Below are positions 6,154 to 29,826 of a DNA stretch of 43,381 bases, piece after piece. Position numbers and translations under genes: made by a program. Where the stretch lies: the IMG/VR virus record IMGVR_UViG_3300025949_001138, positions 1-43,381 of that record, one strand, 5' to 3'. The notes under the pieces were generated by a model. The model saw only the letters and a program-made list of their open reading frames with translations. It made no database searches and was not told the origin of the DNA. The stretch comes from a virus. Numbering within the stretch: position 1 is the first letter of the stretch; every line of letters starts with the position of its first letter.

Positions 6154-6437
6154 AGGCGATCGTCAACGTGGAGCGCCGCAAGCGTTTCGCGGGGACCACG
6201 ATCGGCCATGCGGAGGTCAAGGACGCCGCCACCGGGCGCGTTGTTTCCGAGGCGTCCATCACCGATTCCTGGGCCACCCCTGCCCCCAAGACGTTCGCGG
6301 AGAGCGATGCCCGCGACCGGAGCGATGCACCGGCGGCGTTCCTAGTCGTCGCCGGTGTAGCCGTTCTCTTGTTCCTCTCGTTCGTCGGAGCGGTTGACCT
6401 GTTCCATACGATCATCGCGTGGGTGGGATCGTGGTAG
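6150..6437 (+). CDS. Single-pass membrane protein; unknown
   Basis: A 95-residue protein: a soluble charged N-terminal part (about 1-65, MKAIVNVERRKRFAG...), then a clear hydrophobic helix AFLVVAGVAVLLFLSFVGAV at about 69-88 and a short tail HTIIAWVGSW. Membrane anchoring in the inner membrane is the only supported statement. Its place among early genes argues against a holin. ATGA overlap with the upstream gene. Confidence 0.7.
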   Translation: MKAIVNVERRKRFAGTTIGHAEVKDAATGRVVSEASITDSWATPAPKTFAESDARDRSDAPAAFLVVAGVAVLLFLSFVGAVDLFHTIIAWVGSW

Positions 6438-20454: not shown

Positions 20455-21858
20455 GTGCCGATTCTCGACAAACTGCGCTCCGCGCTCGGAATCCAGGCCA
20501 AAGCCGCCACGTCGAAGACCTCGTACGCCGCCGGCCCCTACGGTCGGGTGCGCGTCCAGATGCAGGTCCTCGGCGGTGACCCGCGCGCCGGTGCGAAGAT
20601 GCTCCGCGACTTCTCGCGGCGCTGCGAGCCGGTCCGCACGGCCATCAACCGCCGGAAGCGCCAGATCAGCCAAGCGAAGTGGCGCATCGTCCGCACGGAT
20701 GACCCGAAGGCCGTAGTCAACCCGGCCATCGAGAAGAAGATCACCGACCTCCTGCGGTTCGTCAACCCGAAGGGCGAGAGCTTCCGCACGTTGCTCGACA
20801 TGGTCCTCGAAGACGTCCTGGTGCTCGACGCCGGATGCATCGAGAAGGAGAAGACCCTGGGCGGACAGATCGTCGCCCTGTGGGCGGTCGACGGCGCGAC
20901 CATCGTCCCCGATCCCGAGTGGGACGGCTCCGACCAGACCGCGCCGCGCTACTACCAATACGTCGACGGGCGCCTGGTCGCGAAGCTCCGCAACGATCAG
21001 CTCGTCTACATCATGGGGACGCCGACGACGTACTCCCCGATCGGGTGGTCGCCGGTCGAGGCGCTTGTCCGCGTCATCGAAGCGACGCTCTACGGCTCGC
21101 AGTACGACTACGACATGCTCCGGCAGACGGCTCCGGCCGGCGCGCTCGACCTCGGGCGTGGTCTGAGCACCGAGCAAGTCGTATCCTACCGCGAATACTA
21201 CGAGAGCGAGATCGCCGGCACCAAGGACATCGCCATCTTCGGCGGCGGCGAACCGGGCCAAGGCTCGGGCGTCAACTTCATCCCGTTCCAGCGGTCGAAT
21301 GCCGACATGCAGCGAGCCGAGTACCGCGAGTGGCTCTGCAAGGCGATCGCGACCGTCTTCGAGATGGATCCGACCGTCTTCGGGATCACCGGCGACGTCA
21401 ATAAGTCGGCATCCAAGAGCCTGCAGGTTCGGACGGACGAAGGCCACGTCGCCTACGCGAAGCTCATCGAAGAGTTCATCGAGCGCGAGATCGTCTGGTC
21501 GTTCGACCAGAACCACGGGTTCGAGTTCGAGGAGCTGAACGCTCGCGACGAGCTGGCGCAGGCCAAGATCGACCAGATCTACATGTCGATCGGGAAGACG
21601 TTCCCGAACGAGCTGCGCGCGCGCGACGGCGAAGACCCGGTCGATTGGGGCGAGCAGCCCTACGTCGCGACGCAGTCGGCCTTCGCCGGCGACGAGCCGG
21701 ACTCGGGCGAGGCCGACGACCAACCGGAGAATACCGCGAGCGGCTCGGGGTCCGGCAAGTCCGCCGTCCCTTTCGGGTCAAGGGCGCCAATGCCGCGCGC
21801 GAAGGCGACCTTCACACAACGCTCCATGCCATCGTGGCATCGGAGCAGCGGCGCATAG
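20455..21858 (+). CDS. Portal protein (zero-frame product)
   Basis: A 467-residue portal that forms the dodecameric head vertex. Typical features: PVRTAINRRKRQISQAKWRIV near the start, YYQYVDGRLVAKLRNDQLVYIMG and PIGWSPVEALVRVI in the middle, FGITGDVNKSASKSLQVRTDE and FEELNARDELAQAKI towards the end. GTG 20455 is preferred because AAGGAG lies six bases upstream; a coupled GTG at 20440 would add five residues. From 21775 the portal frame looks unlike coding sequence (rare AGG, TCA, CCA, ACA), while the -1 frame looks coding; see the frameshift signal at 21768. Confidence 0.92.
   Translation: MPILDKLRSALGIQAKAATSKTSYAAGPYGRVRVQMQVLGGDPRAGAKMLRDFSRRCEPVRTAINRRKRQISQAKWRIVRTDDPKAVVNPAIEKKITDLLRFVNPKGESFRTLLDMVLEDVLVLDAGCIEKEKTLGGQIVALWAVDGATIVPDPEWDGSDQTAPRYYQYVDGRLVAKLRNDQLVYIMGTPTTYSPIGWSPVEALVRVIEATLYGSQYDYDMLRQTAPAGALDLGRGLSTEQVVSYREYYESEIAGTKDIAIFGGGEPGQGSGVNFIPFQRSNADMQRAEYREWLCKAIATVFEMDPTVFGITGDVNKSASKSLQVRTDEGHVAYAKLIEEFIEREIVWSFDQNHGFEFEELNARDELAQAKIDQIYMSIGKTFPNELRARDGEDPVDWGEQPYVATQSAFAGDEPDSGEADDQPENTASGSGSGKSAVPFGSRAPMPRAKATFTQRSMPSWHRSSGA
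21768..21812 (+). other. Candidate programmed -1 frameshift signal (portal to MuF)
   Basis: CCCTTTC at 21768-21774 is in exact X XXY YYZ phase with the portal frame (GTC CCT TTC). After five bases, AAGGGCGCC (21780-21788) pairs with GGCGACCTT (21804-21812), eight of nine positions. Slipping back one base continues as PFRVKGANAAREG into the MuF-like frame, giving a 683-residue fusion. A one-base sequence error in the C/T run would look the same. Confidence 0.6.
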
Positions 21859-22505
21859 ACGGCGCCTTCACCGAACTCAAGGCGAGCCTGCTCGACCGCT
21901 ACCGGCGCATTTACAAGGACGCGAACAGCGACGACATCGCCCGCCTGCTTCGTGACTTCGCCGCCGGCCTGGTCTCCGAGAGCGAGATTGAGAAGGCCGC
22001 ACAAGCCGGCATCGACGCGGTCCCCGACCTCGCGCACGTCACGAAGCCCGAAGCGCATGCGGTCGCGGCCATCTGGATCGGCAAGGTCCGCAAGTACCAA
22101 CGGCAGTTCCCGGGGCGCATGGGTGACGAGATCGCCGCCGCGGCGTCGGAGGCCGAACAGGCCGCGCGCGACCAGGGGCTCGAGGAGGCGGCGGTCGCCG
22201 CGACCATCCTCGACGCGATCGAAGCGAAAGCCGAAGCCTTCCGCGCCGAGGCGCTCCTCTACGCCGAGCCGGTGTGGAGCGCCGGCAATCAGGGCTACGG
22301 CGAGACGCTCGATGCGTCCGACGTCAGTCTCGATTGGGTGTGCGAGCCGGACGCCTGTCCGATCTGCTCGCCGCTGCCCGACGGCAATCCGTACTCGGTG
22401 GACGCCCTGCCGATGTGGCCGGGCGATCCTCATCCGAACTGCCGGTGCTACGTGACGCCGGACGACGCCTCATGGACCGCGATCTTCGGCGACGCCGCCG
22501 CATAA
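21834..22505 (+). CDS. MuF/SPP1 gp7-like head morphogenesis protein
   Basis: From GTG 21834 the protein has 223 residues, but the frame is open and looks coding from 21774, so it is probably made as an extension of the portal. There is a helical body (LLDRYRRIYKD, AVAAIWIGKVRKYQRQFPGRM), then the diagnostic end: VCEPDACPICSPLPDGNPY and MWPGDPHPNCRCYVTP, the CxxC...HPNCRC pattern of phage Mu F-like minor head proteins. These bind the portal and may enter the head. No ribosome site is visible before GTG 21834, consistent with frameshift expression. Confidence 0.85.
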   Translation: MASEQRRIDGAFTELKASLLDRYRRIYKDANSDDIARLLRDFAAGLVSESEIEKAAQAGIDAVPDLAHVTKPEAHAVAAIWIGKVRKYQRQFPGRMGDEIAAAASEAEQAARDQGLEEAAVAATILDAIEAKAEAFRAEALLYAEPVWSAGNQGYGETLDASDVSLDWVCEPDACPICSPLPDGNPYSVDALPMWPGDPHPNCRCYVTPDDASWTAIFGDAAA

Positions 22506-28972: not shown

Positions 28973-29530
28973 GTGAGTGCAACGCAGAGCCGCTCGGGGG
29001 CAACCTCGAGCGGCTTCTTCCGCAAAGAGCGCGAGGCAGAACTGCTCGCGCAGGCCGTCGGCGATCCGTCCGGCGTCCTCGTCACCATCGGCGGCTACGA
29101 GTTCAACCTCGTCCCGTTCGACACGGATACCGGCATCAAGCTCTTCGCGCTCATCCCGCGCATCGGGCTCCTGTGGGGCAAGATGCAAGCCGGCGTCGCC
29201 AACGATTCCGACGCATCCAGCGTCGAGGACGTCATCGAGAACGATGCGCCGTGGATCCTGGGCCTCATCAAGGCGACGCTTCTGGACTCGGCATCCTGTG
29301 CCGACCCGGACCTCGACGTCGAGTCCTTCGAGAAGTGGTTCGGACGGACGCGGTTCATCCCCATGCTCGAGGTCCTCGTTCCGAAGATCCTCCGCGCGAA
29401 CGGGATGGATAGCCTCGCCGACCAGATCGAGAACGCGATCGCGAGGTACAAGAACAAGCCCGACCCTACGACACCGGCGGAGACGCCGGAGCCGGAACTT
29501 CCCCTGACGGAGGGGATCGTGAAAACCTGA
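28973..29530 (+). CDS. Tail assembly chaperone (upstream, G-like)
   Basis: A 185-residue protein starting at GTG 28973. Body: VTIGGYEFNLVPFDTDTGIKLFALIPR, LGLIKATLLDSASC, FEKWFGRTRFIPMLEVLVPKIL, then an acidic Pro-rich end (TPAETPEPELPL). Location between tube and tape-measure genes and the tail-tube-like start fit the first of the two assembly chaperones. A hairpin with T-rich tail lies within its first codons (28988-29020). Confidence 0.75.
   Translation: MSATQSRSGATSSGFFRKEREAELLAQAVGDPSGVLVTIGGYEFNLVPFDTDTGIKLFALIPRIGLLWGKMQAGVANDSDASSVEDVIENDAPWILGLIKATLLDSASCADPDLDVESFEKWFGRTRFIPMLEVLVPKILRANGMDSLADQIENAIARYKNKPDPTTPAETPEPELPLTEGIVKT
28988..29020 (+). terminator. Terminator-like hairpin inside the 5' end of the chaperone gene
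   Basis: AGCCGCTCG and CGAGCGGCT are perfect nine-base complements around a ten-base loop, followed by TCTTCC. A GAAAGA/TCTTTC hairpin also lies just before the GTG. These may lower expression of chaperones relative to the tail tube gene. Confidence 0.5.
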
Positions 29531-29532
29531 GC

Positions 29533-29826
29533 ATGACCGACATCGTCAAGCACGTTGTCGCTCACTATCGCCTCATGCCTAGAACAGCTATGCGCGGGCT
29601 CACGTTCGCGCAGATGCTCATCATGTTCGACGCGATGGTCAAGCTCCACGTCCTCACCAACCCGTTCGGGTCCGGTGAAGGCGGCGGCTCCCGGTCGGGA
29701 CCGCAAGACGTCGACGGCGTCACCGGCGCGCAGATCCTCGGCGACGCCGGGATCTTCCCGGTACGCAGGGCCGACAAGTCAACACTCGATCCGGCGATCC
29801 AAGCCTATCTCAACGAGGGGGGGTGA
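29533..29826 (+). CDS. Tail assembly chaperone (downstream, T-like)
   Basis: A 97-residue protein two bases after the upstream chaperone: MTDIVKHVVAHYRLMPRTAM, LTFAQMLIMFDAMVKLHVLT, then a Gly-rich linker and a helical end. It lies in the -1 frame relative to the upstream gene, as in G/GT pairs, and that frame is open back to about 29413, but I see no canonical slippery heptamer, so separate translation is equally possible. Confidence 0.65.
   Translation: MTDIVKHVVAHYRLMPRTAMRGLTFAQMLIMFDAMVKLHVLTNPFGSGEGGGSRSGPQDVDGVTGAQILGDAGIFPVRRADKSTLDPAIQAYLNEGG

Follow-up and report, generated by a model that had tools for sequence, protein, structure and literature searches.

A conserved slippery heptamer near the end of a phage portal gene very probably directs a -1 ribosomal frameshift into a MuF-like frame

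Analysis of a viral DNA of 43,381 nucleotides (IMG/VR record IMGVR_UViG_3300025949_001138; hereafter the window) leads us to propose that a programmed -1 ribosomal frameshift near the 3' end of its portal gene very probably produces a 683-aa portal-MuF fusion alongside the 467-aa portal protein. The slippery heptamer, its phase, the relation of the two frames, the lack of a usable MuF start, the conservation of the arrangement among relatives and an upstream Shine-Dalgarno (SD)-like element can all be read in the sequences themselves.

Results

Portal gene and MuF-like frame in the window

The features at the junction are:
20455..21858, + strand: portal protein ORF, 467 aa, matching PF04860 (Phage_portal) at E 1.7e-26 over residues 60-391
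21768..21774, + strand: slippery heptamer C_CCT_TTC, in phase with the portal ORF; all nine -1 loci conserve it, as does L007
21774..22505, + strand: MuF-like frame, -1 relative to the portal, 243 codons after the slip plus a stop

The portal ORF starts with GTG, with AAAGGAG upstream, and its PF04860 match is above the Pfam cut-off and spans most of the domain. The last 27 codons, 3' of the heptamer, form an unconserved 0-frame tail. The MuF-like ORF adjoins the portal gene directly on its 3' side. In PHROG profile searches it matched phrog_115 (minor head; E 9e-5) and the C-terminal part of phrog_2662 (E 2.6e-5); the latter is a portal profile of 717 positions, and the window's portal ORF matches its N-terminal part. 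A Brochothrix minor capsid protein was among its best phage tblastn matches (E 3e-4), and the frame can be aligned with the MuF of the relatives described below. Because the curated Pfam MuF model PF04233 gave no match in the window, and in the related locus L004 only one below the cut-off (E 0.12), we call the frame MuF-like; no solved structure matched the domain by sequence.

The first-pass annotation of this DNA had suggested a -1 frameshift at a correctly phased CCCTTTC, and positions 21768-21774 do split as C_CCT_TTC in the portal frame. Likewise, its 683-residue product beside a 467-residue portal agrees with the portal ORF ending at 21858 and the -1 frame running to 22505. It had also found no convincing start for MuF, and we could add none: the only starts available in the -1 frame are TTG 21645, within off-frame Arg-rich sequence, and GTG 21834, within the conserved MuF N-terminus, and neither has a convincing ribosome site, unlike the neighbouring genes, whose sites are strong (AAAGGAG, GGAGGT).

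The portal ORF holds no in-phase X_XXY_YYZ besides C_CCT_TTC, and the whole window has just one CCCTTTY on its + strand. The same heptamer, as C_CC.U_UU.C, supports high-level frameshifting in E. coli (PMC4066793).

Conservation of the heptamer and of the frame relation

Relatives were found by portal searches of viral contigs and bacterial genomes. Nine distinct loci showed the -1 arrangement, namely the window, L001, L002, L003, L004, L005 (the same as L006), L031, L032 and L095; as L031 and L032 are mutually close, they represent about eight independent lineages. Portal identity to the window was approximately 45-66% across these loci, and the fusion would be of conserved length, 677-729 aa, in the -1 relatives. 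Together with L007, in which portal and MuF are in frame, they form one clade of ten loci (support 100/100), within which L007 groups with L095 (100/100). None of the relatives in this clade carries portal and MuF as separate, non-overlapping genes, an arrangement that the first-pass annotation had considered contrary to its proposal.

An in-phase C_CCT_TTY lies at the frame change in all nine -1 loci (C_CCT_TTT in L005, C_CCT_TTC in the others). Its proline codon is mostly a rare one: of the eight -1 loci counted, CCT accounted for 20% of proline codons in L004 and for 0-7% in the other seven. The base before CCT is invariably C, while the amino acid to which it belongs varies (V, R, N, T, S, L). 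The joint probability of a rare CCT and a preceding C over eight loci is about 5e-14, a figure that ignores common descent and is meaningful only as an order of magnitude. We interpret the rare CCT and the invariant C with a varying residue as conservation of the heptamer beyond any protein-level constraint. In addition, L031 and L032 differ at 2 positions in the 60 nt after the heptamer and at 4-12 in later 60-nt blocks, a difference that is only suggestive.

Six of the nine loci (L001, L002, L004, L005, L031, L032) have a -1-frame stop 3-27 nt before the heptamer and no start codon from there to the heptamer, so that the -1 frame can hardly be entered except via slippage at the heptamer. This closure of the frame, together with the heptamer, phase and frame relation kept in nine loci, upholds the initial suggestion that a -1 frameshift makes the fusion. 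The alternative that MuF is translated separately, through coupling to the end of portal translation or from an atypical start codon in the overlap, with no fusion made, would agree with the usual arrangement, in which MuF is a separate gene just after the portal gene (PMC5576092), and with an ATG 63 nt past the heptamer in L005. No start is shared between the loci, however: the first ATG, GTG or TTG comes 63 to >200 nt past the heptamer, within the conserved MuF residues or beyond them, and in L004 the 240 nt that follow the heptamer contain none. In L001, L002, L004, L005, L031 and L032, conserved MuF residues precede any later start. Furthermore, the portal stop falls 5 to 28 codons past the heptamer, at a distance that varies by locus, and separate translation would leave the conserved in-phase heptamer unexplained. 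We regard this alternative as very unlikely.

Around 45 more distant portal relatives (mostly 25-41% identity) had neither an adjacent MuF match nor a heptamer of this kind at the end of the portal gene, which we count in favour of the frameshift; one of them, L080, carries CCCTTTT approximately 500 nt before its portal stop. Another distant relative, L030, was considered as a portal and MuF split by one stop codon and rejected, as the second ORF has its own start with AAGGAG; by its sequence this pair is read as ordinary separate genes. No new close loci came from additional scans in which L007, L032, L004 and L005 served as queries. Among genomes of the phylum of G001 one new locus, L095, was found, and among relatives of G002 none. 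L031, L032 and L095 (genomes G001, G002 and G124) come from one bacterial phylum and are apparently prophages or phage contigs in bins; this phylum hints at the hosts of the phage in the window.

An SD-like element upstream of the heptamer

One further feature, absent from the earlier account, lies 5' of the heptamer:
21744..21752, + strand: SD-like element CTCGGGGTC, candidate upstream stimulator, core GGGG at 21747-21750, anti-SD pairing -6.2 kcal/mol

In all ten loci an SD-like stretch is found at a fixed spacing, with its peak at offsets -25 to -21 relative to the heptamer. The mean pairing energy there is -9.1 kcal/mol vs. approximately -1.9 kcal/mol at other in-phase portal positions, and none of 200000 draws over the ten loci was as low. 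The element is strong in L001, L002, L005, L031, L032 and L095. It is good in L004 and fair in L003; the window and L007, at -6.2 kcal/mol each, have weak versions. The residues encoded by the stretch vary between loci, which points to selection on the RNA. Cumulatively, the element is likely, on these pairing energies, to be a conserved stimulator of the slip.

Two observations speak against the frameshift reading here. The element is weak in the window, where 3.8% of in-phase portal positions are equally good, and about 14-17 nt separate its core from the heptamer, a spacing at the upper limit of, or slightly over, the 9-14 nt described for -1 shifts (PMC5009743).

The fusion could also arise without ribosomal slippage if the polymerase slipped at the C/T run, giving mRNA with an altered number of bases that is then translated in the standard manner. 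Transcriptional slippage normally requires a long single-base run, and the run here consists of only three C and three T. Moreover, the loci conserve two features that belong to ribosomal slippage, the codon phase and the SD-like element. Even with the precedent of frame-fused products made by transcriptional slippage in some bacterial genes (reviewed in PMC5009743), we consider this origin of the fusion exceedingly improbable.

Downstream RNA structure

Two predicted structures lie 3' of the heptamer:
21777..21815, + strand: short stem-loop region, fold -15 kcal/mol, z +0.81
21781..21868, + strand: larger predicted fold, z -2.4 for 21740-21880 vs. shuffles

The nine-position stem-loop that had been put forward as part of the signal can be drawn, yet it is no better than chance, which counts against the frameshift reading: at -15 kcal/mol it is weaker than the shuffle mean of -17.2 kcal/mol, and 159 of 200 shuffles fold equally well. 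A consistently strong short downstream stem was not found in the relatives, and we rejected it as a conserved stimulator. In the comparison with related phages that had been proposed at the outset, the heptamer is kept in all ten loci and the stem is not conserved.

The larger fold fares better in the window, where only 3.7% of synonymous shuffles of the 90 nt downstream are as good. A fold of these 90 nt that beats synonymous shuffles is confined to the window and L007 and is not general in the relatives; it is possible that the larger fold acts as an extra stimulator in the window's phage. Belonging to this fold is a strong predicted hairpin, GCTCCATGCCATCGTGGCATCGGAGC, at 21821-21846, just 5' of the portal stop. 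A trade-off between SD strength and downstream structure was not significant (Spearman -0.39, p 0.26).

A locus with portal and MuF in frame

In L007 (IMGVR_UViG_3300041409_000940, 6329-6345) portal and MuF form one in-frame ORF and C_CCT_TTC is kept, so that a -1 slip at the heptamer would add two more residues, followed by a stop, to give a short portal in a dnaX-like topology. That L007 is in frame is a point against the frameshift reading. Since the tree nests L007 inside the -1 clade, the in-frame arrangement either arose secondarily or reflects an assembly error. In the latter case there could be one extra base in GTCCGT just past the heptamer; with one base removed from this stretch, the -1 frame would read on as in the relatives. 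Favouring a real slip site, CCT is otherwise absent from the portal-MuF gene of L007 (0 of 43 proline codons outside the slip site), and the 90 nt downstream fold better than 99% of synonymous shuffles.

L007 also bears on the proposal that the frame change in the window is itself a sequencing or assembly error, with a base missing or added close to the C/T run in what is truly one continuous portal-MuF ORF. The record is a metagenomic contig, L007 shows such a continuous ORF, and single-ORF portal-MuF proteins are known elsewhere. However, the same -1 relation occurs at the same heptamer in nine distinct loci on different contigs and genomes, and an error would leave the rare CCT codon and the upstream SD-like element unexplained. 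We find this proposal scarcely credible, and retain the ribosomal frameshift as the preferred reading.

Discussion

We envisage that ribosomes translating the portal gene would arrive at C_CCT_TTC, where a fraction of them would slip one base back in both the P and A sites (tandem slippage), CCT pairing being exchanged for CCC and TTC for TTT. Slipped ribosomes would continue in the MuF-like frame and yield the portal-MuF fusion, plausibly as a minority product, while unslipped ribosomes would terminate a little later to release the portal alone. Anti-SD pairing with the G-rich element about 14-17 nt upstream probably aids the slip; in the window's phage, in which this element is weak, the larger downstream fold may help. 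The fusion would then anchor MuF, in a limited number of copies, to the portal ring within the head. The slippage itself, its rate, the presence of the fusion in virions and the purpose of the tethering we infer from this scheme, as we do a role for frameshifting in setting the MuF copy number.

The mechanism is of a known type. In the tail assembly chaperones of the lambda G/GT type, too, a morphogenesis gene has an X_XXY_YYZ near the end of the first ORF and a -1 C-terminal extension, whereas the genes here encode a portal and a MuF-like head protein and the upstream SD-like element is conserved. A possible tail chaperone pair in the window, suggested by its position before the tape measure gene (28973-29530 and 29533-29826), has no in-phase X_XXY_YYZ in the last 180 nt of its first ORF; 28973-29530 has no PHROG match, and 29533-29826 has its own ATG right after the stop of that ORF. 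In E. coli dnaX, as proposed here, a -1 slip with an upstream SD stimulator gives two co-produced proteins, but dnaX slips on A_AAA_AAG, and a defined stem follows downstream, in contrast to C_CCT_TTC and no general stem in our loci. The topology of dnaX is reversed in some bacteria (PMC5009743), which resembles the relation of L007 to the remaining loci. The major head and tail proteins of Lactobacillus phage A2, as cited in PMC5009743, are also structural proteins made in short and long forms by -1 frameshifting, though neither is a portal and the extension is not MuF-like.

The same two domains occur in one polypeptide in single-ORF portal-MuF proteins (phrog_2662), such as those of Brevundimonas phage Polewnik (774 aa) and Arthrobacter phage Sonali (995 aa), and the existence of these natural proteins indicates that a fusion is compatible with assembly. 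There the ORF is continuous and every portal subunit carries MuF, whereas a frameshift would yield both kinds of subunit. As the single-ORF fusions show, not every phage needs a mixed portal ring. In the Sonali protein (L082:2144-5131) a NUDIX hydrolase domain separates the portal domain from the MuF domain, and Arthrobacter phage Mufasa8 has an ORF of similar length (L083:2134-5136), for which one record names a MutT/NUDIX hydrolase. In SPP1, as here, MuF (gp7) follows the portal (gp6), but the two are separate genes whose products bind non-covalently, in contrast to the covalent fusion proposed here; gp7 binds the portal and few copies enter the procapsid (PMC6316719, PMC5576092).

We found no published case of the portal-MuF gene pair as a site of frameshifting. 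No description of a portal with frameshifting or a MuF fusion was found in the open-access literature, a search whose scope makes this weak evidence of absence. The nearest report is that of PRFect, which lists, for SEA-PHAGES genomes, predicted frameshifts that lack annotation at VIP2 and MuF-like genes (PMC10885494).

We further entertain the idea, which we would sooner doubt than assert, that a conserved SD-stimulated -1 frameshift sets the number of MuF-tethered portal subunits and that the site was retained through the inversion in L007, reflecting selection for both products, as in dnaX. MuF is present at the portal in only a few molecules (one to two copies in SPP1), and portal-MuF fusions made by frameshifting would be a simple, testable way to fix that number. 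Routine annotation of this little-known phage group would leave MuF startless, split or lost; if the frameshift is true, the portal joins the phage structural genes with a programmed frameshift.
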